Shown here piece by piece: positions 10,070-61,333 of a stretch of DNA of 64,000 nt (positions within the stretch are counted from its first letter, which is position 1; every line of letters starts with the position of its first letter). The position numbers and the translations under genes are program-made. Below the pieces are notes generated by a model. That model had not been told where the DNA came from and ran no database searches. It was given only the letters and a program-made list of their open reading frames with translations. The stretch spans positions 62,001-126,000 of the forward strand of contig VGMW01000001.1 of the NCBI GenBank assembly GCA_016866235.1. Reading direction: 5' to 3'. This stretch comes from Bacteroidota bacterium (GTDB taxonomy: Bacteria > Bacteroidota > Bacteroidia > Cytophagales > Cyclobacteriaceae).

Positions 10070-11512
10070 ATGTTGCGCATTTTTTCTCTTCTGATTTTTC
10101 TTCTGTCCTATACAGTCAATGCCCAGAAAATTGATATTGTTTTAGGGCCTTCGGATGTTGCTGAAAATCAGTTCTGGACCATAACAGTTTCGGTGAGCAA
10201 CGACAACTTTAAAAATTATGATGCTTTTCCGGATGTTGAAGGCTTTCGCAAGCGAGGGACCAGCACCCAATCGCAAACAAGCATTGTGAATGGCCAGATG
10301 AGTACGGTGCAATCGGTGATCATGACCTATCAACCGGTAAAGCAAGGCACGTTTGTTCTTCCGCCTTTCAAAATGAAAATCAATGGTCAGGTTGTCTCTT
10401 CGCCAGGTAAGACCATTCGGGTCGGGCAGGCGGTCCAATCTCAGGCACGTGACCCTTTCAATAGCCTTCTCGACAGAGATCCTTTTGCGGATATGTTTTC
10501 AAAAAGAGAAACAGAGTTTGTTGAAGTCAAAGAGGATGCGTTCCTCGCCGTTACCACCGATAAAGATGAGGTTTATACAGGGGAAGGATTTACGGCAACT
10601 CTTTCATTTTACATTTCAGAAACCAACCGCGCAACCATGCAGTTCTTTGAGCTGGGTGAGCAGCTGACCGGTATTCTTAAACAATTGCGGCCCGACGCGT
10701 GTTGGGAGGAAAATTTCAACATAGAAAATATAGAAGGTGAGCGTATTGAAATTGGCGGCAAAGGATATACCCAGTACAAAATCTATCAGGCAGCGTTCTA
10801 TCCGCTGAATGCTAAAAACATAACCTTTCCATCGGTAGGATTGAAAATGATCAAGTTTAAGGTCGCAAAAAATCCATCCTTCTTTGGTCAGAATCGGCAG
10901 GAGGATTTCAAAACCTTTTACACGAAAGCCAAAACAGTTCGGGTGAAGGAATTGCCACCGCATCCATTGCGGGAGTCGGTTGCCGTTGGTGCTTATCGGG
11001 TGGAAGAAAAAATCAGTGAGCCCGAAACCACCACAGGAAAAAGTGTTGGATTTGATTTTACCATACTGGGAGAAGGAAACATATCAGGTATTCAGAAGCC
11101 GCTGGTATCGGCAAATCCAGGATTGGAGTTTTTTGATCCCAATATCCGTCAGAGCATCTCAAGGAATTACGGCCGCGTGGCTGGCTCTAAGACATTCAGT
11201 TATTTTATTATTCCCAATGAAGCCGGTGAATATGATCTTGGCCAGCATATTCAGTTGATCTATTTTGATCCAGCCCGGAAGCAGTATGATACCTTAAAAC
11301 CCCGAACTGTTCTGCGGGCAACGGGTGAAAACCGTCAAAACATTGCCATTGAAAGTAAGGACGCTACCTCATTTTACGATCGGATTTCCTCCGCAGACAA
11401 TACGTTGAAAAATCAGAATGCCTTTGATTTTGCCCGACTCGGAGCTAACTTGTTCGTCGCTGCCGCATTGGGTGCAGCATTTTTTCTGATCATCAGAAAG
11501 CAAAAACAGTAG
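10070..11512 (+). CDS. BatD family protein
   Basis: 480 aa exported protein of the BatD (Bacteroides aerotolerance) family, linked to oxygen and stress tolerance and normally encoded with MoxR, BatA, BatB and BatC/E. ATG 10070 gives a clean signal peptide ([19 protein letters not shown]); the GTG at 10061 is less likely. BatD repeats of Ig-like beta domains follow ([34 protein letters not shown]-type strands), and a single C-terminal membrane helix (about 455-475) ends in IIRKQKQ. Unusually the other bat genes are absent; the neighbours are queG and aroC, with aroC starting 2 bases after the stop. Confidence 0.88.
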
Positions 11513-11514
11513 AA

Positions 11515-12585
11515 ATGAATTCTTACGGACATCATTTTAGAATCACAACCTTTGGTGAGTCACATGGACCAGCCATCGGTGTGATTATTGATGGGTGTCC
11601 TGCAGGTCTGGACATCGAAGAAAAATTTATTCAAACTGAATTGGAACGAAGACGACCCGGTCAGTCCAGAATTACTACACAGCGCCAGGAGGAGGATCAG
11701 GTTCGAATTCTTTCAGGTGTATTCGAGGGTAAATCCACCGGTACACCCATCGCTTTGGTTATTGAAAATACCGATCAGCGCAGTAAGGACTATAGCCATA
11801 TAAAAGATGCTTACCGGCCGTCTCACGCCGACTTCACCTACGATGCCAAATATGGTGTTCGGGATTACCGTGGTGGCGGAAGAAGTTCGGCGCGTGAAAC
11901 AGCGGCCCGCGTTGCTGCCGGTGCCGTTGCAAAGCTCTTATTAAAGAAATCAGGCATTACCGTGCGGGCATATGTCTCACAAGTGGGTGATATTTCGGCC
12001 CCTCACTATGCTCAATTGGATCTATCCGCAACCGAAGAAAATATTGTTCGGTGTCCACATACTGCAACCGCTGAAAAAATGATTGCCTTGATTGATCAGG
12101 TCAGGCTTGACCGTGATACTGTGGGCGGCATGGTAACCGGCGTTATTCAGCATTGTCCTGCCGGGTTGGGGGAGCCTGTTTTCGACAAGCTTCATGCTGA
12201 ATTGGGTAAAGCGATGCTCAGCATCAATGCTGTAAAAGGCTTTGAGTATGGCAGTGGTTTTGAAGGCATCAAACTTCGTGGCTCGGCCCACAATGATAAT
12301 TTCGTCAATGATGGAAACCGGATTCGAACCACAACCAATCATTCCGGCGGTGTACAAGGGGGTATTTCGAATGGTGAGGATATTTATTTCAACGTTGCTT
12401 TTAAGCCGGTTGCCACAATCATGATGGATCAGGAGAGTGTTGATAAGGAGGGCAATCAGACAACGGTAAGCGGAAAAGGCAGACATGATCCATGCGTTGT
12501 TCCTCGCGCGGTTCCGATTGTTGAAGCTATGGCCGCACTTGTGGTCGCTGATTTTTTGCTGCGTGCACGCTTGTCAAAAATCTGA
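11515..12585 (+). CDS. aroC: Chorismate synthase
   Basis: Final shikimate step: anti-elimination of phosphate from 5-enolpyruvylshikimate-3-phosphate to chorismate, needing reduced FMN. 356 aa, full length. Signatures: [10 protein letters not shown] at 13-22 (catalytic His17), [14 protein letters not shown] and [17 protein letters not shown] in the middle, and GGISNGEDI with the C-terminal GRHDPC(V)VPRAVPI segment. Transcribed with batD (2-base gap). It converges on the ComM-like gene with 7 bases between them. Confidence 0.98.
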
Positions 12586-50194: not shown

Positions 50195-50761
50195 ATGGCG
50201 CAAATACCCTCCAGGCCGGTTCGTGAATCCAGAACGGTAATCACCGAATTAATGATTCCGTCTTATGCCAACTTTGGAGGAAAAATCCATGGTGGGATTT
50301 TACTTTCCCTCATGGACAAAGTCGCTTATGCGTGTGCCAGCAGACATGCCGGAAGTTATTGTGTAACCGTTTCGGTGGATCGTGTTGAATTTCTTCAACC
50401 TGTAGAAGTGGGTGAGCTTGTATCGTTGATGGCCTCCGTTAATTATGTCGGCAATTCTTCGATGATTGTTGGCATTCGTGTTGAATCTCAAAATGTAAAG
50501 ACAGGTGAGATCAAACACACCAATTCCTGTTTCTTTACCATGGTGGCAAAGGGTGAGGACAACCGACCGTTGACTGTACCAAAGCTCGTTTTGGAAAACA
50601 GCGAGGATGTCAAGAGGTTTATAGAGGGCATGCGTCTAAAAGATCTAAGGAAACAGGTTCGAGATCAAATGGACGATATACACACAGTTAAGGATTTCTC
50701 AGGCGCATCCGAACTTTTACGAAATGAACGATGCATTCTGCCTGCCAATTGGAACAATTGA
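50195..50761 (+). CDS. Acyl-CoA thioesterase (hotdog fold)
   Basis: 188 aa from ATG 50195 (the TTG three bases earlier is less likely). PSYANFGGKIHGGILLSLMDKVAYACA is the acyl-CoA hydrolase active-site signature, and VSVDRVEFLQPVEVGELVSLMASV the beta sheet. The C-terminal 50 residues are extra and Arg/Asp-rich. Hydrolyses fatty acyl-CoA. Runs into the M24 gene start region. Confidence 0.9.
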   Translation: MAQIPSRPVRESRTVITELMIPSYANFGGKIHGGILLSLMDKVAYACASRHAGSYCVTVSVDRVEFLQPVEVGELVSLMASVNYVGNSSMIVGIRVESQNVKTGEIKHTNSCFFTMVAKGEDNRPLTVPKLVLENSEDVKRFIEGMRLKDLRKQVRDQMDDIHTVKDFSGASELLRNERCILPANWNN

Positions 50762-50772
50762 TCAAATCAAAT

Positions 50773-52098
50773 ATGAGAAACGTAATTTTTATTCTTTCAT
50801 TGGCCTTGGTTCTTCACCTGCAGGCGCAGCCCCTGGTGCTTAGTCAGCGCGCTCAGGCGACTGTTGTGGATGAACTATTAGAAGATCGTTTGAAAAATCT
50901 TCTGCCTGGTTTGATGCGTAGAGAGGGCTTTGATATGTGGGTCGTCATTTCCAGGGAGTACAATGAAGATCCTGTTATCCGAACCCTGTTGCCGGCCACC
51001 TGGTTCGCAGCCAGACGTACCACCATGCTTTTGGTCTTCGATAAGGGCTCCGCGCAACCAATGGAATACCTGGCGGTTGCACGTTATGATGTTGGAAAGG
51101 TTTTCAAGCGCGCATGGGACCCGGAGGCGCAACCAGACCAGTGGGCCCAGCTCGGAAAACTCATTTCAGAACGGAATCCAAAAAAAATCGGAATCAATAA
51201 AGCACCGGGTTATGGTCATGCCGACGGACTTACCTCCAATGATTACGACCGTTTGATGGAAGTGTTGCCTAAAAAACTTCAGTCATCCTTGGTAAGCGCC
51301 GAGAAACTAGCGGTAAGCTGGCTGGAAGCAAGAACTGAAAAGGAGATGGTTATTTACCCACAAATCTGCCGGGTTGCCCATGAAATTATTGCGGAGGGCT
51401 TTTCCGATAAAGTCATTCAGCCAGGTGTTACCACAACCGATGATGTGGTCTGGTGGTACAGGGAGCGCATCAGAGAACTTAAGCTAGATACTTGGTTTCA
51501 GCCATCTGTTTCAATTCAACGTGAGGAAGAGGAAGCGATTTTTTCTAAGCGAGCGCAACCATTGGTCATTATGCCGGGTGATTTGCTCCATGTGGATTTT
51601 GGCATCACATATTTAAGGCTAAACACCGACACGCAACAGCATGCCTATGTATTAAAACCTGATGAGAAATCGGTTCCCCAGTTTCTTAAGGATGCTTTTG
51701 CCAAAGGCAACAGGCTTCAGGATATTCTAACGGGTAATTACAAAGAGGGTAAAACAGGAAATCAGATTTTGCAAGAGTCGAGACAACAAGCGCTACAGGA
51801 AGGACTGCGTCCATCCATTTATACGCATCCCATCGGGTTCCATGGCCATGCTGCAGGAACTACGGTTGGCATGTGGGACATGCAGGGTGGTGTTCCTTAT
51901 ACCGGCGATTATCCCCTTCATTCCGGTACTGCCTATTCCATTGAATTGAATGTCACGGTAGCTGTTACCGAATGGAAAAAGGACATCAAGATCCAGCTGG
52001 AAGAGGACGGATATTTCGATAAGACCGGCTTCCGATATATTGATGGCCGACAAGTGGAAATCATACCCATCCCACGTCCTTCGACCATTAACCGATGA
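50773..52098 (+). CDS. M24 family metallopeptidase (Xaa-Pro aminopeptidase-like), exported
   Basis: 441 aa from ATG 50773, with a signal peptide ending LQAQ. An N-terminal creatinase-like domain (to about 180) precedes the pita-bread domain with metal ligands in HVDFG and NTDTQ (two Asp), HPIGFHGHAAG (His), YSIELN (Glu) and QLEED (Glu). Should remove N-terminal residues before proline in the periplasm. Starts 12 bases after the thioesterase. Confidence 0.9.
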   Translation: MRNVIFILSLALVLHLQAQPLVLSQRAQATVVDELLEDRLKNLLPGLMRREGFDMWVVISREYNEDPVIRTLLPATWFAARRTTMLLVFDKGSAQPMEYLAVARYDVGKVFKRAWDPEAQPDQWAQLGKLISERNPKKIGINKAPGYGHADGLTSNDYDRLMEVLPKKLQSSLVSAEKLAVSWLEARTEKEMVIYPQICRVAHEIIAEGFSDKVIQPGVTTTDDVVWWYRERIRELKLDTWFQPSVSIQREEEEAIFSKRAQPLVIMPGDLLHVDFGITYLRLNTDTQQHAYVLKPDEKSVPQFLKDAFAKGNRLQDILTGNYKEGKTGNQILQESRQQALQEGLRPSIYTHPIGFHGHAAGTTVGMWDMQGGVPYTGDYPLHSGTAYSIELNVTVAVTEWKKDIKIQLEEDGYFDKTGFRYIDGRQVEIIPIPRPSTINR

Positions 52099-52173: not shown

Positions 52174-52890
52174 ATGTCCAGAATCATTGAGACTAAAAAT
52201 ATTTCGAGGCAGTATGTCATGGGCGATAACATAGTTCGTGCCCTTCAGGATATATCCATCACTATTGAAAAGGGGGAATATGTCGCTTTCATGGGCCCCT
52301 CAGGTTCTGGAAAATCAACCCTTATGAACATTGTAGGATGTCTTGACACACCATCCTCTGGCACTTATATCCTAAACGGACAAGTGGTGAGTGAGATGAC
52401 TGAAAATGAATTGGCTCAGGTCCGCAACCGTGAAATCGGTTTTGTATTCCAGACGTTTAATTTATTGCCCCGCGCCTCAGCGCTTGAGAATGTTGCCTTG
52501 CCACTGATATACGCCGGCTATGGCAAATCTGAACGTGAGGAAATTGCCATGGAGTCTTTGAAAAGTGTGAATCTTGAAGATCGTTGGCACCATAAACCAA
52601 ATGAGCTTTCGGGTGGACAAAGACAGCGTGTAGCGATTGCTCGTGCACTTGTCAATAAGCCCTCCATAATTTTGGCCGATGAACCAACCGGTAACCTCGA
52701 CACCAAAACATCCTATGGAATCATGGCCCTGTTTCAGGAGCTTCACGATAAAGGCAACACCATAATTATGGTGACCCATGAAGACGACATTGCGCATTAT
52801 GCACACCGAATCATACGCCTGCGTGATGGTCTGGTGGAATGGGACAAAATAAATGACAGGGTTACCCGTCAGGCCGAAGCAACTGCCTAA
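52174..52890 (+). CDS. ABC transporter ATP-binding protein (MacB/LolD-like)
   Basis: 238 aa ATPase without membrane domain: Walker [10 protein letters not shown] (41-49), Q-loop, signature [19 protein letters not shown] and Walker [13 protein letters not shown], all typical of the MacB/LolD/FtsE group ([20 protein letters not shown]). No permease gene adjoins it, so the partner must be elsewhere. A TAATTTCG near 52109 might be the promoter. Confidence 0.92.
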
Positions 52891-52973: not shown

Positions 52974-54359
52974 ATGCGAAGACGAAATTTTCTGGCTCTT
53001 ACCGGAACCTCTCTGTTGGGAGGGCTGCCCACGTTGGCTAAAGTGCTTCCGCCTACTTTAGAAACGGTTGTAACCGGTGGCAATGTATTGATCGATGGTG
53101 CCTGGAAGACTGCCCACCTGGGTATACGTACCGATGGCAGCATGGAAGTTTTGCAAAATGTACCTACCGGAATTCCGGTTACAGATATAAAGGGAAAATA
53201 TGTTTCCCCTGGATTTATTGATATCCTCGCCGACAATGCGGCCAACCCGGAAAGAACCTATCGGATTTTTGAAAAGTATAAGGTAACCGACGGTGTCACC
53301 ACAGCCCTTCAAATGCACGGAGGAAGTGCTAAGGTGGCTGAGTACTATAAACACTTTGGCTCATTGCCCCACCGGATCAATTTTGGTGTTTCCGTTTTTG
53401 TGATGCGAATTCGCTACGCCAAGCCAACTTTGGGAGAAAGATTGAAAGCCGTTGAGCAAAATCTGGAAGCTGGAGCATTGGGTGTCTCTCATAGTATTGA
53501 GTACCAACCGACGCCGTATGAAGAGGTGCTTCAATATGCCCGATTGGCTAAAAAATATGATCGTCCTTTTTTTCTTCACCTTCGGTACTCATCCGAGTCG
53601 AAAGAACTTGAAGGAGTTGATGAGGCTATTGCAATTGCTAAAAATTCTGGTGCAAGGGTTCACATCGATCACCTTCACTCTACCGGCGGAACTTTTCATA
53701 TGGCTGCCGCTCTCGCAAAAATAAGATTGGCCAATCAATCAGGACTTCGAATCACATGTTGTGTGTATCCTTATTCATTTTGGGCCACCTATCTTCATTC
53801 AAAAAGATTTGATGAGGGGTGGAGGGAGAGATATGGGCTGGATTACAAAGATCTTCGACTTGTCGGTACCGGAGAGCGGCTTACAGCTGAAAGTTTTTTA
53901 CGATACAAGAAGGATATGAAATTGGTTGCTGTTCCGGAAGGAACAATGCCAATGGATCAAACCATAGATCTGGCGCTAAAGGAAGAATTTTGCATGATCG
54001 GTTCTGATGGTGGTATTGAATATGAACCAGGAGCAAATTCTCACCCACGAGGTGCCGGATGCTTTGCTACGGCTGTTCGACATGGTCTGGATATTGGTAT
54101 GTCCCTTGAACAAATCATTGGAAAAATAACTTCGCTTCCCCGGGGTCTAATTCTACCGGCCATGAAAGACCGGGGCCTGATCCAAAATGGCAGCAAAGCG
54201 GATCTGGTAGTTTTTGATCCAAAAAAAATAAATGGCAGGGCTTCCGTAGAAAACCCAAATCAATTTTCAGAAGGCATCAGTATGGTTTTTGTAAACGGAA
54301 AAGTTGCTTACAAAGAAGGGGTACTGGGCACTGAAGCCGGTGTTCCGATTAAGTACTAA
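52974..54359 (+). CDS. D-aminoacylase-like amidohydrolase, Tat-exported, atypical metal site
   Basis: 461 aa. The N-terminus RRRNFLALTGTSLL carries a twin-arginine signal. The amidohydrolase core is recognisable (KYVSPGFID, LHLRYSSES, HIDHLHSTGG, FCMIGSDGG, final ADLVVFDP), closest to N-acyl-D-amino-acid deacylases. But after GFID the usual HxH reads LADN (Leu85, Asp87) and the family's Cys site reads TTALQMHGG, so two metal ligands are absent while His202, His230/233/235 and Asp345 remain. It may have changed chemistry. Followed 2 bases later by a glycosyltransferase. Confidence 0.85.
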   Translation: MRRRNFLALTGTSLLGGLPTLAKVLPPTLETVVTGGNVLIDGAWKTAHLGIRTDGSMEVLQNVPTGIPVTDIKGKYVSPGFIDILADNAANPERTYRIFEKYKVTDGVTTALQMHGGSAKVAEYYKHFGSLPHRINFGVSVFVMRIRYAKPTLGERLKAVEQNLEAGALGVSHSIEYQPTPYEEVLQYARLAKKYDRPFFLHLRYSSESKELEGVDEAIAIAKNSGARVHIDHLHSTGGTFHMAAALAKIRLANQSGLRITCCVYPYSFWATYLHSKRFDEGWRERYGLDYKDLRLVGTGERLTAESFLRYKKDMKLVAVPEGTMPMDQTIDLALKEEFCMIGSDGGIEYEPGANSHPRGAGCFATAVRHGLDIGMSLEQIIGKITSLPRGLILPAMKDRGLIQNGSKADLVVFDPKKINGRASVENPNQFSEGISMVFVNGKVAYKEGVLGTEAGVPIKY

Positions 54360-54361
54360 AC

Positions 54362-55669
54362 ATGGCTGAAGCGCCTAAAAAAATTCAGGTTTTGATTGTG
54401 GCGTATTACTGGCCGCCTTCCGCTGGAAGTGGTGTTCAGCGATGGTTAAAATTTGTTAAGTATTTACCTGAATATGGTATCGCCCCTGTTGTGCTTACAC
54501 CGGAAAATCCAGATGCTGAGTGGACAGACGCCTCACTGGAGGCTGAAATTCCAAAAGACATAGAAGTTCTCAAGCTCCCGGTGTGGGAACCTTACCGTTT
54601 TTGGCGCCGAATCAAATCAGCATTCAAAGGTGGTCGTAAGGTGGCCTCCAATACGCCCTCGCATGAATCTGGTTTAGCCAGGTGGATTCGTGGAAATTTT
54701 TTTCTTCCGGATCCGCGAATATTTTGGGTGAAGCCTGCCGCCGCATTTCTTGAAGATTTTGTCCGGTCGAGGAACATCAAAATTTTAATTACTACAGGAC
54801 CGCCTCATAGCATGCATTTGATCGGTTTAAGGGTGAAGAAAAATTTTCCAGATGTTAAATGGGTTGCTGATTTCCGTGATCCGTGGTCGACCTGGGGTGC
54901 TCTCAAAAAATTTAAACCCTCCTCAATTGCAATGGGCATTCATCGGCGACTGGAGCGATCAGTCCTGGATCATGCCGATGAAATTCTGACCATCTCACCC
55001 TTTTATGTTCGCCAGCTGAGTGCGCTGTCAGGAAAATCTGTCCATCTTTTTACCAATGGTTTTGATGAAGAAGATATGGGACGGATCCACAAAACGCCTA
55101 CCGACCGATTTACCATCCGACATGTTGGAATTCTTCATCCAGAATGTGATCCTTGGCCCTTCCTGACTATTTTCAAGACCTGGTACTTGATCCATGGGTT
55201 GACTCATAAGATCAGGCTTGTATTTACCGGGACAGTGACCGGTGCGTTTCTTTCAGCCCTACAAAGTGACGATTTACTTAGGGAGGTTGTTGAAATCGAG
55301 ACTCCGGTTTCTCATAAAAACCTTCTTGATCTTTATGGTAAAACCGATGCATTGCTACTGGTTCTTACCGGCTATCGTGATGCGGAGGGGTTTTTACCCG
55401 GGAAACTGTATGAATATTTGGGTACAGGGTTACCTATTGTCGCGGTTGGACCTGCTGCAGGTGACGCATCTTTAATTTTAGAAAGTTCTGGTGCCGGCAA
55501 AATGTTTTCAGAGGATGATGAAGCAGGGGTTCAGGGTATTCTTACTTCATGCTATGAAGAATGGTTGAATAAAATAAACCGCCCCAGTTTACCGCCTGCT
55601 TCATTGAAATGGTCCAGAAAACATATTACTGCCGACTTAGCAACATTTTTGAAGTCCCTTCATTCCTAA
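54362..55669 (+). CDS. Glycosyltransferase (GT4-like)
   Basis: 435 aa, two Rossmann-like halves. LIVAYYWPPSAGSGVQRWLKF is a GT4 N-terminal segment, WVADFRDPWS and the second-half EGFLPGKLYEYLGTGLPIVAVGPA with a nucleotide-binding glutamate match GT-B enzymes. Transfers a sugar in surface-glycan assembly; acceptor unknown. First gene of the sugar region. Confidence 0.87.
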   Translation: MAEAPKKIQVLIVAYYWPPSAGSGVQRWLKFVKYLPEYGIAPVVLTPENPDAEWTDASLEAEIPKDIEVLKLPVWEPYRFWRRIKSAFKGGRKVASNTPSHESGLARWIRGNFFLPDPRIFWVKPAAAFLEDFVRSRNIKILITTGPPHSMHLIGLRVKKNFPDVKWVADFRDPWSTWGALKKFKPSSIAMGIHRRLERSVLDHADEILTISPFYVRQLSALSGKSVHLFTNGFDEEDMGRIHKTPTDRFTIRHVGILHPECDPWPFLTIFKTWYLIHGLTHKIRLVFTGTVTGAFLSALQSDDLLREVVEIETPVSHKNLLDLYGKTDALLLVLTGYRDAEGFLPGKLYEYLGTGLPIVAVGPAAGDASLILESSGAGKMFSEDDEAGVQGILTSCYEEWLNKINRPSLPPASLKWSRKHITADLATFLKSLHS

Positions 55670-55677
55670 AGGGATTT
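55652..55677 (+). terminator. Weak hairpin at the end of the glycosyltransferase gene
   Basis: AAGTCCCTT (55652-55660) pairs with AAGGGATTT (55669-55677) around an 8-base loop that contains the stop codon; only a short T run follows, so terminator activity is uncertain. Confidence 0.3.
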
Positions 55678-55691
55678 ACTAAATTCGATCT

Positions 55692-56117
55692 ATGAAAAAT
55701 TCAATTCTTCTATTTTCCATTCTTATTTCAATATCTGTGTTTGCACAGGATAAAGATGAGGCTCAGATTTTGGCTTTATCTAAGCGAAAATTTGAATGGA
55801 TGAAATCCGCCAAACTTGACTCACTTAATGCACTGGTTGATGATCGGTTATCCTACATTCATTCCAATGGCTGGGTTCAGACCAAAAGGGAATTTCTGGA
55901 CGACTTTACCAATGGCAAATTGGTGTACCATGATGTAGTCGTTTCTGAAGCCAACGCAAGGGTCTATAAAGGATCTGCGGTGGTTACCGGAAAAGGTCAG
56001 TTCACCACCACGATGAACAACAACCGCACAAGTGTTTCCTTGATGTTCACTGAAGTATATATTAAAGAGAAGGGCAACTGGAAGTTGGTATCTCGACACG
56101 CCAACCGATTGCCTTAG
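55692..56117 (+). CDS. NTF2-like (DUF4440) protein, exported
   Basis: 141 aa. Signal peptide (MKNSILLFSILISISVFAQ) then a SnoaL/NTF2-like cone-shaped domain (RKFEWMKSAKLDSLNALVDDRLSYIHSNGW, NWKLVSRHANR). Family members bind small ligands or act as isomerases; no catalytic residue can be assigned. Converges on the flippase with a 2-base gap. Confidence 0.84.
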   Translation: MKNSILLFSILISISVFAQDKDEAQILALSKRKFEWMKSAKLDSLNALVDDRLSYIHSNGWVQTKREFLDDFTNGKLVYHDVVVSEANARVYKGSAVVTGKGQFTTTMNNNRTSVSLMFTEVYIKEKGNWKLVSRHANRLP

Positions 56118-56119
56118 AA

Positions 56120-57616
56120 TTATTTTCTCCGCCTGAAATCAAGGCCCAGTCTTTTTAGGCCATCGTAAAATAATTGGTTTGCTTCATCAGAACAGTTTAG
56201 GCCTATGGCCGCAAAACAGTAGACTGCTGTTAGTAATGTAGAACGTACTATAGCATCGGAGAGTGACGATCCTACTTTTGGAATTAGCTGATTGATAAAA
56301 ACAGTCACCATAATTACGATGGCAACACGTGTAGTGCGCCCATCGAATGGATGCATTTTTATTCGAACTGAAATAAAAATTGCTTTTGCCAGGTTGTAGA
56401 GGAATAGAGCAGCCAAAGTTCCAATCGCAGCACCATTCATCCCGTAAACAGGTATCAGGAGAATGTTTGCTGCCACGGTAAAAGTTGCCAGCAGCGCAAT
56501 AACCACCAGGTTAAACCAATAATGTTTGGAAAGGCCGATGACCTCGCTGCTGGGACCGAAGGACATGTCCATCAGTTTGGCGCAGCCAATAACCATGACA
56601 ACCCACGCGCCGGCTTCATAAATATCGCCTTTGGGCATGATGTCAAAGATATTTTCAAGGTTGGCCCATATGCCGGTGAGTAAAAGTCCGCCGATAAGCA
56701 TCTGATGAAGGGCGGTTTTACGATAGATTGAAGAGGCTGATTTGAGGTCGCCTTTTTCGAATGCATGTGCAAGCAGTGCAGATGCAGATTGGGTTAGTGC
56801 GCGTTTGGGTACCTCAATGACGGAAGCCATGTAGTAGGTGGTGGTGTAAATCGCTGCTGCTTCCAGTCCAAGAAACCCAGTAACCATAAGGCTATCCACT
56901 TTGGCAACGACTATAACGGAGCTGAGACCAATAAAAGTGATCAATCCAAAAACTATGATTTCTTTTATTTCACTTTTCTCAGGCAGTTGAAGTTGAAAGG
57001 TGTTACGCCTCAATATTCCAAGATAGTACAGAAGGGTGATTAGCGTGAGCGTGTAAATACCCACCGAACCGAATAAAAATTGATCAAAATCAATTGTGCC
57101 TTGTAGGTAAAACAGGACGAGCACAGCTTGAAAGGCGCGTATGACAACATCTTTGAGCAGTGCTGGCAGTGCAATCATCATTTTAGATCTGGCCATCTGT
57201 TCAAAAATTCCTGAAATGGTGAGGGTAAGGGTTAGCCAAAGGATCAAACCAGGGTAGTTCAAAAGTTCAGGTGCTTCCTCAGCGAAAAAATTTGAAATAG
57301 GATCCTGGAAAAATTTAAGCAGTAAGGTCATCACCAAAAACCCAACCATTGAAATCAGCAAGGTTAGGGTGATAAAGGAGGACAAACGGTTTTCATCTGA
57401 GTGAAATCTTGGATAAAATCTAGCCACAGCCTGTGGTACGCCGAGTGAAGCAAATGGGGTGAGCACCATAGCGCTGTCTAAAATTGCTCGTAATAATCCA
57501 ACCTGGTTGGTCTCAAGATATTTTGGGTATAAAAAAACCAGGTTGATGTAGCCAATCACTACCCCTGCGTAGGAGATGATGGTGGTGATTAGACTTTGCC
57601 TGACAACGATACCCAT
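56120..57616 (-). CDS. Oligosaccharide flippase / polysaccharide biosynthesis protein
   Basis: 498 aa with about 14 hydrophobic helices and the N-terminal MGIVVRQSLITTIISYAGVVIGYINLVFLYPKYL of MOP-superfamily Wzx proteins. It should flip lipid-linked glycan units of the surface polysaccharide made by the neighbouring glycosyltransferases. Follows a GT4 gene by 3 bases on the same strand. Confidence 0.9.
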   Translation of the reverse strand: MGIVVRQSLITTIISYAGVVIGYINLVFLYPKYLETNQVGLLRAILDSAMVLTPFASLGVPQAVARFYPRFHSDENRLSSFITLTLLISMVGFLVMTLLLKFFQDPISNFFAEEAPELLNYPGLILWLTLTLTISGIFEQMARSKMMIALPALLKDVVIRAFQAVLVLFYLQGTIDFDQFLFGSVGIYTLTLITLLYYLGILRRNTFQLQLPEKSEIKEIIVFGLITFIGLSSVIVVAKVDSLMVTGFLGLEAAAIYTTTYYMASVIEVPKRALTQSASALLAHAFEKGDLKSASSIYRKTALHQMLIGGLLLTGIWANLENIFDIMPKGDIYEAGAWVVMVIGCAKLMDMSFGPSSEVIGLSKHYWFNLVVIALLATFTVAANILLIPVYGMNGAAIGTLAALFLYNLAKAIFISVRIKMHPFDGRTTRVAIVIMVTVFINQLIPKVGSSLSDAIVRSTLLTAVYCFAAIGLNCSDEANQLFYDGLKRLGLDFRRRK

Positions 57617-57619
57617 GGT

Positions 57620-58774
57620 TTAAAAGAGTGCTGAGATGGTCTGATTGAAAATTACTGCATTTTTTTCAGCACAGAGGTCAGCGGCTGCCTTTTCTGAACC
57701 TTGTTTGAAATTCAAAAGAGTTTCGGTGGTAAGTTGATTGAGTTGAGAGGCCAAGGCACGTGGACTAAAATCGGCGGAAACAATACCATTTTGATATTGA
57801 TGTACGTAACGGGCCATTTCGGGTGAAGGACCAATAGCAACGGCGAGCCTAGCTTGAATAAAATCGAAAAATTTATTGGGCAGCGCATTGGCGTAATTGA
57901 AGTTGGAAGGCGGGAGTAAAAAAATTCCGATGTCAAATTGTTTAATGGTTTGGACAATCATGTTGCTCTCCACCGGTTCATGAAGTGTTATCCGTGGATC
58001 TGACCTGAATTTTTCTTTTAATGCATGGATGTAATCTTTTGTGCTACCCGATGCAAAGTCACTGGTTAATAAGTAGAGGTCCAGCGTGAACCGTTGGTCA
58101 AGCAATTGCATGACGTCAAACATCAATTCTAATTTTCTGGAAGGGTTGGCAATACCATGGTGGACCAACCGAATTTGGTTGGGTTGAACTTTTGAGGGTT
58201 CAACTTTTTGAAAACCTGGGGCATTGGTGATGACCACAGGTTGTCGGCCGAAATGAGTGGCATATTCATCCGCCAGGCCTTTCCCAACCGTAAACATGGC
58301 GTCAAGACGGGGAATAAATTCGGTACAACACCAGATGTTCATGGGCTGAAAAATGAGTCGCCACCACCAACGGTCTTCAAAGTGACGTGGCGCGTACTCG
58401 TGGGCATCCAGAATGATCCTTGCAGCTGGTCGTTTTTTTTTGATCTGGAAGGCTAGGGGCAAAGTTTCAACATCATTGGAAATGATGATATCCCACAGGT
58501 GGTTGTTATGATTTTTCAGTCTTCCAGAATAGGGGTGAAACGTATTCCAGGCTCTTCTATACTGCCCGAGCAGGGACCATACCGCAATCATAATTTTCCT
58601 TAACAATCCGAGGCTGCCGGGTTTAAGGTCAATGAAATGGTGGTTTGCATGGGAGACGTCTCCAAAGGCAGCGACGGTGACTTCAAAATTTTCAGACAGA
58701 AAGCCAATCTGACGTTTTACCCTGGCATCATGTCTGAGCTTGCTATAAACAAGGACCAGGGCTTTTTTCATCAA
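57620..58774 (-). CDS. Glycosyltransferase (GT4-like)
   Basis: 384 aa GT-B enzyme: LVYSKLRHDARVKRQIGFLSENF at the start, LDAHEYAPRHFEDR, and a C-terminal RXXXE-type donor site around PPSNFNYANALPNKFFDFIQARLAVAIGPS. Operon with the flippase (3 bases) and a methyltransferase (12 bases). Sugar and linkage unknown. Confidence 0.86.
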   Translation of the reverse strand: MMKKALVLVYSKLRHDARVKRQIGFLSENFEVTVAAFGDVSHANHHFIDLKPGSLGLLRKIMIAVWSLLGQYRRAWNTFHPYSGRLKNHNNHLWDIIISNDVETLPLAFQIKKKRPAARIILDAHEYAPRHFEDRWWWRLIFQPMNIWCCTEFIPRLDAMFTVGKGLADEYATHFGRQPVVITNAPGFQKVEPSKVQPNQIRLVHHGIANPSRKLELMFDVMQLLDQRFTLDLYLLTSDFASGSTKDYIHALKEKFRSDPRITLHEPVESNMIVQTIKQFDIGIFLLPPSNFNYANALPNKFFDFIQARLAVAIGPSPEMARYVHQYQNGIVSADFSPRALASQLNQLTTETLLNFKQGSEKAAADLCAEKNAVIFNQTISALF

Positions 58775-58786
58775 AAACTTCTCAAA

Positions 58787-59521
58787 TTAAAATTTAGCGA
58801 TTCCTACTATAGAGGATGCGTATGTGAAAGGATAGGATTGCTCTGTACCGATTATGGATGAAATTTTTTTCCGTATCAACTCAAAAGTTCCCAATGGAAC
58901 TCTGTTTGTGAAATGGATCGAGTCAAGTTCAAAGCCAGATCTTAGAATGACTTTGGCCAGGGTATAGGGTGTAAACCAATAACGGTGGTCGGAGTTTATG
59001 ATTTCCTCTGACCTGTTGGCATAATGCATGGTGGTCTTGGTCCAGGCATTGGGAACGGTAATGACCAGGTACTTTGTGTTCTTTTCAAAATTTTTTCTGA
59101 TCGCTTGCAGAAATTGGACCGGATTGTCGACATGCTCAAGTAATTCGCCTAGGACGGCATAGTCCCATTGTTCATTCGATCCAGAAAATTCAACACCACT
59201 GGTGAAGTCATGGAGTATAATGTTGTCGTATCCTAATTTGGCTTTAACAAATTCAGCGGTTTGCTTATCCACATCTATTCCCAAACAACGGCTGGCGCTT
59301 GCTGACAACTCGGCGTGCAGCCACTGTTTTCTCTTAAATTTCTCCTCAATTAAATTTTGGTGGTCAAGACATCCCAGGTGCAGTACACTTTTGCCACTCA
59401 TCAGCTCACAAAGAAATTTTATCCGATCAGGAATCGGTCCAAGAAAATCATATCGGGTAACATGATTGTTGGAGAATTTCTCTCCTTTTAAATAGGGAAG
59501 CGACGCTGGGTCAAACCGCAT
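58787..59521 (-). CDS. SAM-dependent methyltransferase (class I)
   Basis: 244 aa. Motif I SVLHLGCLDH and acidic D-containing beta2 (CLGIDVDKQT), then WDYAVLGELLEHVDNP as the catalytic-side loop. Likely methylates a sugar or lipid-linked glycan given its place among glycosyltransferases. Overlaps the downstream GT by 11 bases. Confidence 0.87.
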   Translation of the reverse strand: MRFDPASLPYLKGEKFSNNHVTRYDFLGPIPDRIKFLCELMSGKSVLHLGCLDHQNLIEEKFKRKQWLHAELSASASRCLGIDVDKQTAEFVKAKLGYDNIILHDFTSGVEFSGSNEQWDYAVLGELLEHVDNPVQFLQAIRKNFEKNTKYLVITVPNAWTKTTMHYANRSEEIINSDHRYWFTPYTLAKVILRSGFELDSIHFTNRVPLGTFELIRKKISSIIGTEQSYPFTYASSIVGIAKF

Positions 59522-60773
59522 GAGAGAGATTCAAAACTCTTTGGGCAAAGTTAGGAAAATTAACAGCGGCGTTAAATTTTGTCTCCCATACCTTCCTGGC
59601 ACCTTCCCTTAATTTTAGGTATTCATGCTCAGGCATTGTTCGAATGGTTGTTATGGCATTCGCAAAGTCTTCTTCTGTCGGATTGGGTGAAAGCAGCAAA
59701 CCTGATTCCCAGGTCACCAATTCATGAATGGCACCAACATCAGGAGCAATCACTGGTATTCCATACGACATGGCTTCCATCATGGTAACCGGAATACCTT
59801 CGTTTTTGCTGGCATTGATAAAAATGGAAGGCATCTCATTTAAATAAACATCTCCTATAGCTGTTTGAGGAATGTTTCCAGTGAAATAAAAAGTAGAATT
59901 TGGATTTGAATGAGACAAAGTTTGCGCAAGCTTGTTTATTTCTCCCTCCTGGCTACCCCCACCAATGTGAACATGCCGAATTTCATTCTTTGAAGCCAGC
60001 GCAACAGCCCTAAGTATTTTATCAACCTGCTTAACCGGTAACAAGTATGAGCAACTGGCCACGCAAAATTTTTGTCTTGTATCCGTAGTTATTTCAAAAG
60101 ATTTGGGATTTGCGGTACCCAATCGGCTAACAGAAATTTTTTCTGAATAATTATCTCCCACCGTTGAAAGAAGGTAACGCTTCCCATCCTCTGAAATACT
60201 GAGCACCTGATCAAGGCCTATCAAAAGTGTTCTTCTAAAAGACAAGTAATTACTTTGGTGTCTGTATTCATAAAGGTCTCCACTGTGTGCCCTTGAAATT
60301 CTGGTAATTCCTTTTGATCCTCTAAAAGTTATCATGGTCGCAAGAGCTGAGTTGTTCAGCCAGTAGGAATATAGAATGACGGGTTGTTTTCCAATCTCTT
60401 TGTTAATGATGGTTTCCATTTTTTTGGAAAGTAATAATGCCTTTGAGGCATCATGCAGCATCTTTTGAATTGATGAGAACTTAAGTCCTCCGTGATTGGC
60501 TATAAATCCGACTTCATCAAAAAGAATTTTAGCGAGAAACAAAAAATGACGAAACATCAGGAGCGGTAGAATAACGTAATCACTCCACGGACTAACAAGG
60601 TTTATTCTATAGATGGAAGCATCAACTTCGGAAGTTTTTGCATCTACCTGATTCTTGGAAAGAATAATTACTTTACTAAAGAATTGTTTTATTTCGGTAA
60701 GCTCTGGATGCAGAAAAGATTCTCCACGACCAAAAGGAAAATTATTGGTGATCAAAAAAAGTGCCGGCTTCAT
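59511..60773 (-). CDS. Glycosyltransferase (GT4)
   Basis: 420 aa from ATG 60773, which overlaps the ruvC stop as ATGA. GT-B enzyme with [13 protein letters not shown], the donor-binding [33 protein letters not shown] and EDFANAI. The longer start at 60815 is less likely because it lies inside ruvC. Part of the surface-glycan operon. Confidence 0.9.
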
Positions 60774-61333
60774 TTTTTTATCCTGCCCGGATTTTTTTTC
60801 AGAAAAGATTTCCAATCATTTCCGCCTAAGGTGGTGATGGCTTTCCCCTGGTAATGATGACAAACAGCAACCGCCAATGCATCCGTGGCGTCTAAAAATT
60901 GAGGCGCCTCTTTCAAACTGAACATGGCGCTGAGCATGGCGGCAACCTGTTCTTTGCTTGAATTTCCATTGCCGGTTACTGCTTGTTTTATTTTGCGGGG
61001 CGCGTATTCTGTGATCGGAATTTGTCGGTAAAGCGCCGCCGCCATGGCTACGCCCTGCGCCCTGCCAAGTTTAAGCATCGATTGTACGTTCTTCCCGAAA
61101 AAAGGTGCCTCCAGGGCTACCTCATCAGGATGGTACTCATCAACCAAAGACAAAATCCTTTCAAATATTTTTTTCAGCCTCAAGGCATGGGAATCCATCT
61201 TTGCCAGTTTGATTACACCAAACTGCATCAACGTCATTTTCTGTCCATGCGCCCTCAACACACCATAGCCCATTACCGTCGTGCCCGGATCAAGGCCTAG
61301 AATGATTTTCTCTTTGAGATTTTTTTTATCCAT
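60770..61333 (-). CDS. ruvC: Crossover junction endodeoxyribonuclease RuvC
   Basis: Holliday-junction resolvase. 187 aa from ATG 61333 (an upstream ATG 61357 only adds eight residues). Acidic active-site residues Asp15 (LGLDPGT), Glu75 (ALEAPFFG), Asp148 and Asp151 ([13 protein letters not shown]). The rest of the fold is typical. It sits between glycosyltransferase genes, apart from ruvB and ruvA. Divergent to a GT2 gene with 38 bases between. Confidence 0.96.

Follow-up and report, generated by a model that had tools for sequence, protein, structure and literature searches.

Lineage-wide absence of the HxH pair in D-aminoacylase-like amidohydrolases that carry a candidate histidine ligand on strand beta-2

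We analyzed a gene in a 64,000-nucleotide stretch of bacterial DNA (here, the window) whose product is a member of the amidohydrolase superfamily of the D-aminoacylase kind but lacks HxH, the pair of histidines that is a usual recognition signature of amidohydrolases. Loss of HxH is a property of a whole lineage rather than of one odd gene. Judged from the alignments, the clade to which the query belongs has lost the HxH pair, the metal-binding Cys, and the carboxylate-binding Lys of its relatives and has gained two residues, His115 and Cys263. We consider the chances somewhat better than even that the protein is a Tat-exported, active hydrolase of N-acyl-amino-acid-like substrates that uses one metal at the beta site, held by His115, His202, and His233. 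The sequence, its conservation throughout the lineage, and a confident fold prediction form the direct basis of this reading, from which we infer the metal, the ligand role of His115, the activity, the substrate, and the export route. The coordinates of the gene and of the residues discussed below are listed in Table 1.

TABLE 1 Features of the HxH-less amidohydrolase gene in the window
Feature	Position	Strand	Basis
HxH-less amidohydrolase gene	52974..54359	+	Complete ORF from ATG to stop, 461 aa
Probable Tat signal peptide, residues 1-22 (extent guessed)	52974..53039	+	Sequence; RR/RK N-termini of orthologues
Leu85-Ala86-Asp87, where the HxH pair is expected	53226..53234	+	L85 and D87 each in 19/19 group A; L85 and Y87 in 6/6 readable group B
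His115, candidate third metal ligand, strand beta-2	53316..53318	+	19/19 group A; 6/6 readable group B
Tyr177, counterpart of OngB Tyr194 (amide oxygen)	53502..53504	+	105/105 aligned sequences
His202, beta-site metal ligand by alignment (OngB His222)	53577..53579	+	105/105
His233, beta-site metal ligand by alignment (OngB His252)	53670..53672	+	105/105
His235, replaces the carboxylate-binding Lys (OngB Lys254)	53676..53678	+	Column counts over the aligned groups
Cys263, clade-specific	53760..53762	+	C in 26/26 (group A 19, group B 7)
Tyr265, counterpart of OngB Tyr285 (substrate carboxylate)	53766..53768	+	105/105
Asp345, catalytic Asp by alignment (OngB Asp368)	54006..54008	+	104/105, remaining row gapped
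Arg359, counterpart of OngB Arg379 (substrate carboxylate)	54048..54050	+	104/105, remaining row gapped

The protein passes the Pfam gathering cutoffs for Amidohydro_3 (PF07969, 36.8 versus 29.7 bits) and Amidohydro_1 (PF01979, 34.6 versus 25 bits). Its best NCBIfam match is NF006560 (PRK09061.1), with a score of 237.4 bits (191.3 bits in a six-frame search) that is under the 340-bit cutoff of that family. The NagA profile was absent among the 22 NCBIfam families matched at E ≤ 0.001, and a solved NagA structure (3egj) gave only a weak C-terminal profile match (E = 9.2e-5). The nearest PDB sequences were an N-acyl-D-glutamate deacylase, a D-aminoacylase, a D-acylase, and the carbohydrate deacetylase OngB. 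Structure prediction, one of the checks proposed in a first-pass annotation of this DNA, likewise returned a D-aminoacylase-type fold. The AF2 model of the 461-aa protein had a mean pLDDT of 87.8 and a pTM of 0.88, and the model together with its Foldseek and VIA matches predicts a TIM barrel with a flanking beta domain. The model matched 9g5m, 9gv8, 3gip, 1m7j and relatives, and OngB with VIA Z scores of 47.9 to 49.0 (rmsd 2.2 to 2.6 Å over 407 to 410 residues); the next structural family, the allantoinases, followed at a Z score of 37.

Aligned to D-aminoacylases, the query reads ILADN after GFID, which places Leu85 and Asp87 in the HxH columns, as the first-pass annotation had described. 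The annotation had also stated that the family Cys is absent and that later His and Asp residues are kept, and the alignment bears out both statements. The Cys column of the GNCG motif is occupied by Gly116, with His115 immediately before it, and the columns of the beta-site pair and of the catalytic Asp hold His202, His233, and Asp345. His115 lies one residue ahead of the Cys if the alignment is left ungapped; the profile alignment inserts a one-residue gap. Across 105 relatives with and without HxH, the columns of Y177, H202, R204, H233, Y265, Y267, D345, H357, P358, and R359 are invariant over residues 28 to 461, as are those of G80, G107, G167, D410, G434, G442, and G456, with gaps and truncated rows set aside in the counts. 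The OngB residue numbers given here were counted by hand on the alignment.

Comparison with close homologues, which the first-pass annotation had also proposed, showed the substitutions to be lineage-wide. Among 19 orthologues that are 56 to 67% identical to the query (group A, from which we omitted L008, a near copy of L007, and the truncated L009 and L076), Leu85, Asp87, Asn88, and His115 are each present in 19 of 19. A sister group (group B), which comprises an Acidimicrobiales metagenome-assembled genome (MAG), Paenibacillus cellulosilyticus, and members of one family of the phylum (f33), has L-x-Y in place of HxH and the same His115 in all six readable members. Groups A and B form one branch with support of 97/96, adjoining PRK09061-like proteins, in a 47-row tree built without the ligand columns, and a quick 99-row tree agreed on this branch (SH-aLRT 97). 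Both trees draw on a set of 105 rows (117 rows minus 12 duplicates) that was hand-picked from the match lists and is not all matches; the 47 rows, also used for the AU test described below, were themselves hand-picked. The label PRK09061-like (12 rows) was assigned by motif and tree position, not by a cutoff. A sequencing error, a frameshift, and an oddity of a single genus were ruled out, since the change is common to orthologues that are full length and without internal stops.

We searched 58 genomes and found a match of ≥56% identity in the window's own genome and in 8 of the 57 others, one of the 8 being a fragment. A contig scan recovered 17 loci at 56 to 71% identity (14 labeled as Bacteroidota lineages and 3 as Acidobacteriota) and two distant ones. 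Among 395 genomes from across the phylum, six had a match at E ≤ 1e-30, including the window's own, and the five others were 33 to 43% identical to the query, so the close group was not met among these genomes outside the window's own. Such few matches of low identity indicate that members of the close group are scarce beyond near relatives, within samples weighted toward Cytophagales and the window's phylum.

The groups differ at three columns. The column of His115 holds Glu in all 12 PRK09061-like rows. Column 235, where most relatives have the carboxylate-binding Lys (65 of the 67 rows outside the clade and the PRK09061-like group), holds His in 16 and Asn in 3 members of group A; Thr in 3, Asn in 3, and Ala in 1 member of group B; and Asn in 10, Gln in 1, and Pro in 1 of the PRK09061-like rows. 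At column 263, where the clade has Cys, the PRK09061-like rows have Glu (11) or Gly (1) and the remaining 67 have Asp (61), Asn (5), or Glu (1). A motif STGGT (residues 236 to 240) is found clade-wide.

We surveyed the third-ligand slot on strand beta-2 by counting from the TT of GVTT, with TT+5 and TT+6 denoting the fifth and sixth residues after it. In 103 of 103 readable rows, two of the 105 being unreadable at these two sites, either Cys/Asp stood at TT+6 or Glu/His at TT+5, never both and never neither. Cys or Asp occupied TT+6 in 44 rows, all 44 of which have HxH; Glu or His occupied TT+5 in 59 rows, 12 with HxH and 47 without. The query clade has His at TT+5 in 25 of 25. A second sample took genomes evenly from across the phylum (28 loci, of which 27 gave 29 ORFs and L164 gave none; three repeat earlier rows), and the rule held in 29 of 29: the 18 ORFs with Cys or Asp all have HxH, and the 11 with Glu or His divide into 4 with HxH and 7 without. 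Across these alignments, the third-ligand slot seems always to be filled, and HxH seems to be missing only where the slot has moved to Glu or His. Because the rows are related and the independent changes are few, this pattern is strong as a description and weak as statistics; on the trees, the HxH state changes three times, and one of these changes rests on a single long-branched row (L085).

A single clade of all HxH-less proteins was rejected by the AU test (p = 2.7e-39), a value that comes from 26 rows grouped by the trait itself and from trees with long branches, and the count of changes cannot separate loss from gain. A second HxH-less group is marked by GFINMLSW or GFINMLSH together with GEG at strand beta-2, with the core residues and the carboxylate Lys retained. 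Its members include L102 and L103 (window's own genome), L016, L025, L040, L134, L151, and L161, and it is frequent in the window's genus and also found more widely in the phylum. L127, L132, and L133 carry an HxH-less variant, GFIDMMGQ with GEG, and join the GFINMLSW proteins on a long branch. A megablast search of one HxH-less paralogue locus against plasmids gave no match. The protein at L085 (G274:C211:14979-15890) is PRK09061-like, with N-T-Y for HxH and Gln-Leu-Glu at strand beta-2, and perhaps represents a third loss of HxH. Other proteins, among them L055, L104, L116, and L150, have Asp (mostly as GQDG) for the subtype V Cys and retain HxH. We also observed tandem NF006560 matches, two or three in a row, in the window's own family (G132:C1:1267242-1270492 and 937296-940496; G167:C7:383325-388188). 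The first-pass annotation had overlooked the lineage-wide loss, the His beside the lost Cys, the fixed Cys263, and the other HxH-less lineages of the family.

OngB, the solved reference enzyme, offers a guide to how such a site might work, and the following details are those given in the part of the source available to us. It binds one zinc through Cys97, His222, and His252 while the HxH site is empty, and its activity is greatest at about one zinc per protein (PMC12017989). Tyr194 serves the amide oxygen, His222 and His252 the metal, and Tyr285 and Arg379 the substrate carboxylate; Asp368 acts as both base and acid in catalysis (PMC12017989). In the D-aminoacylase AfDam, a second metal can occupy the HxH site at high concentration and lowers activity (PMC12017989). 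Because the zinc of OngB is not bound by HxH, loss of HxH would not itself alter the number of catalytic metals. The mononuclear site suggested in the first-pass annotation is therefore plausible, but the absence of HxH, which it gave as the reason, fails as an argument, with the one zinc of OngB sitting elsewhere (PMC12017989).

Transferred to the query, this scheme would have one divalent metal held by His202, His233, and, as a substitute for the family Cys, His115, which is put forward as the third ligand because of the slot pattern. Asp345 would take a proton from a metal-bound water, and the resulting hydroxide would attack an amide carbonyl that the metal and Tyr177 hold; the proton would then pass from Asp345 to the leaving nitrogen, with Tyr265 and Arg359 holding the substrate carboxylate. 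The alpha site is gone, with Leu85 and Asp87 replacing the His pair that neighbors the catalytic Asp in OngB. In that enzyme, His68 and His70 of HxH are close to Asp368, and an Ala substitution at either one abolishes activity (PMC12017989, from the part available). By analogy, loss of HxH would bear more on the setting of the catalytic Asp than on the count of catalytic metals, and Asp87, His115, or Cys263 would have to compensate for the lost pair. Asp87, fixed in 19 of 19 close orthologues, and several clade-specific polar residues could be read as parts of a site for two metals made up of other side chains (e.g., Asp87, His115, Asp345, or Cys263), in which case loss of HxH would not mean one metal. 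Such a site is very improbable in our view, as the sister group has Tyr at position 87 in six of six readable rows and OngB functions with one metal (PMC12017989).

An active one-metal enzyme is favored because a natural amidohydrolase can be active in the absence of HxH: E. coli NagA has QxN for HxH and one beta-site metal, according to the parts of two papers that we consulted (PMC3880350, PMC6016474). A mycobacterial NagA changed to QxN likewise retains activity, with a 7-fold higher Km (PMC6016474). The fold match, the kept catalytic machinery, the slot pattern, and the clade support of 97/96 also count in favor of this reading. On the other side stand the inactivity of OngB with either HxH His changed to Ala (PMC12017989) and that of an AxA double mutant of the mycobacterial NagA (PMC6016474). 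The loss of the carboxylate Lys, the register of His115 one residue before the Cys in the ungapped alignment, the lack of a characterized member in the literature search described below, the derivation of the slot pattern from related sequences with few independent changes, and a gene neighborhood that names no substrate also count against it.

The joint loss of HxH, Cys, and carboxylate Lys, together with the finding that either HxH mutation kills OngB (PMC12017989, as far as the part consulted describes), would fit a pseudoenzyme or binding protein that has given up catalysis and now binds a ligand in the periplasm. This is an unlikely outcome for the query: neither the lineage nor the wider set of relatives varies at the metal His pair, the catalytic Asp, Tyr177, Tyr265, or Arg359, and this speaks against a pseudoenzyme because relaxed selection is not expected to keep such residues. 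One His and one Cys are, moreover, newly fixed. The CRMPs of the dihydropyrimidinase group provide a parallel for lost catalysis and are among the structural matches, though many active relatives are too.

The two newly fixed residues could also point to another chemistry, such as that of a lactonase, an isomerase, or an acyl transfer enzyme, in which His115 or Cys263 would act as an acid/base or a nucleophile and His115 would not be a metal ligand. All 26 clade members have Cys263, at a position that is mostly Asp or Glu elsewhere, STGGT is clade-wide, and in an ungapped alignment His115 replaces the Asn of GNCG and not its Cys. The slot pattern, however, better fits a ligand role, and Tyr177, Tyr265, and Arg359, whose counterparts hold the amide and the carboxylate in OngB, are kept. 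We rate a change of chemistry as rather unlikely.

The N-terminus of the query, MRRRNFLALTG, is twin-arginine, and by eye the N-termini of the orthologues have RR in 18 of 19 and RK in 1 of 19. The twin-arginine motif in 18 of 19 orthologues makes export in folded form likely, and from the sequences we consider a Tat route to the periplasm the likely one. The Tat signal read by the first-pass annotation thus stands on the motif, but the Pfam TAT_signal profile misses the query; it matches 3 of 20 A1 members at E ≤ 1, in a set in which several rows are without an N-terminus. With respect to substrate, the query keeps Tyr265 and Arg359 of the Lys/Tyr/Arg carboxylate set of subtype V and has His235 for the Lys. 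Tyr265 and Arg359 argue for a carboxylate, so that the probable substrates are N-acyl amino acids or short peptides, acylated or with D-residues, in the periplasm.

We examined gene neighborhoods at 21 loci, the window and 20 others (19 in group A and 2 in group B), several of which end too soon; neighbor families were named from the window copies. Upstream in the window lie an M24 metallopeptidase (50731-52098; 39.9 bits in Pfam) and a solitary ABC ATPase (52174-52890), and downstream (54362-60815) lie glycosyltransferases and a flippase-like gene (56120-57616, minus strand). A glycosyltransferase family (F1) occurs immediately downstream or one gene downstream at 7 of the 21 loci, the flippase-like family (F2) occurs further downstream in 6 of 21, and a family that by eye reads as MiaA (F4) occurs upstream in 5 of 21; every other family neighbors the gene in at most 5 of 21. 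A gene for a Tat-type M24 peptidase (10392-11657) follows one relative (L086). The Paenibacillus cellulosilyticus relative (L080:5704-7746) has, by eye, an N-terminal membrane anchor and about 130 extra C-terminal residues; 3' of it are a solute-binding protein (by eye), two unidentified ORFs, and a further pair that clusters with the window ABC ATPase. Gene context was set aside as a clue to substrate, as there is no conserved operon over the 21 loci and the hints at peptides are weak.

The glycosyltransferase link could nevertheless be taken to indicate a periplasmic de-N-acetylase of a surface glycan. In the window, the first glycosyltransferase begins 2 bases past the amidohydrolase stop, the Thermonema locus L069 has a glycosyltransferase gene two ORFs upstream, and the OngB fold can accept an amino sugar acid, as stated in the part of the source consulted (PMC12017989). 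However, all seven loci with the downstream glycosyltransferase are labeled Cytophagales-type or unresolved Bacteroidetes, and the Raineya, Acidobacteriota, Acidimicrobiales, and Paenibacillus loci lack both the glycosyltransferase and the flippase-like families. Five of the seven also carry the upstream miaA-like (by eye) gene, which is a housekeeping gene, so the link is accounted for by simple conservation of gene order between close relatives, and a role in glycan deacetylation is improbable.

The amidohydrolase superfamily has nine metal-site subtypes, and our comparison of ligand sets covers subtype V. Tentatively, and with somewhat less than even confidence, we propose that the clade is an uncharacterized metal-site subtype with one beta-site metal, three His (115, 202, and 233), no HxH, no Cys, Glu, or carboxylated Lys, and a catalytic Asp that works although its solved relative OngB cannot do so without the His pair. 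At least two, and probably three, separate HxH-less lineages would then exist in this family, this clade among them, each observed only where the beta-2 ligand has moved one residue to Glu or His. Several lineages are without HxH while the rest of the site is invariant. If these proteins are active, a class of probably exported amide hydrolases is misfiled with the D-aminoacylases as regards metal chemistry, and the role of HxH in one-metal enzymes could be tested with natural HxH-plus and HxH-less sisters. A literature search, with the subtype-defining papers (Seibert and Raushel 2005; Hall 2007; Khurana 2009) outside its scope, found no description of an HxH-less D-aminoacylase-like protein, no characterized member of the clade, and no deacylase of proven activity with the same substitutions, the counterexample named in the first-pass annotation.

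Among known systems, the query resembles the D-aminoacylases and N-acyl-D-amino-acid deacylases of subtype V (1m7j, 3gip, 9g5m) in its predicted fold, beta-site His pair, catalytic Asp, and substrate-site Tyr and Arg, whereas it is without the HxH described as the usual signature in the consulted part of one source (PMC4407906), without the metal Cys, and without the carboxylate Lys, and carries His115 and Cys263. The carbohydrate (GlcNAc1A) deacetylase OngB (9kb1, 9kb3) has the fold and core residues in common with the query but requires both the HxH His residues and the Cys for activity (PMC12017989, part available). NF006560 (PRK09061.1) is the nearest group in the tree as well as the best NCBIfam match; most of its rows have, like the query, HIxH and no Lys, but HxH is kept in 11 of 12 rows and Glu stands where the query has His115. 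The GFINMLSW...GEG amidohydrolases of Cytophagales and the wider phylum share with the query the absence of HxH and a kept core, but they form a separate lineage with Glu rather than His at TT+5 and with the Lys retained. E. coli NagA, a CE9 deacetylase, belongs to a distant family and differs in its Glu ligand (PMC12017989, part available), but it is naturally active without HxH and with one beta-site metal, as proposed here for the query (PMC3880350, PMC6016474, parts available).
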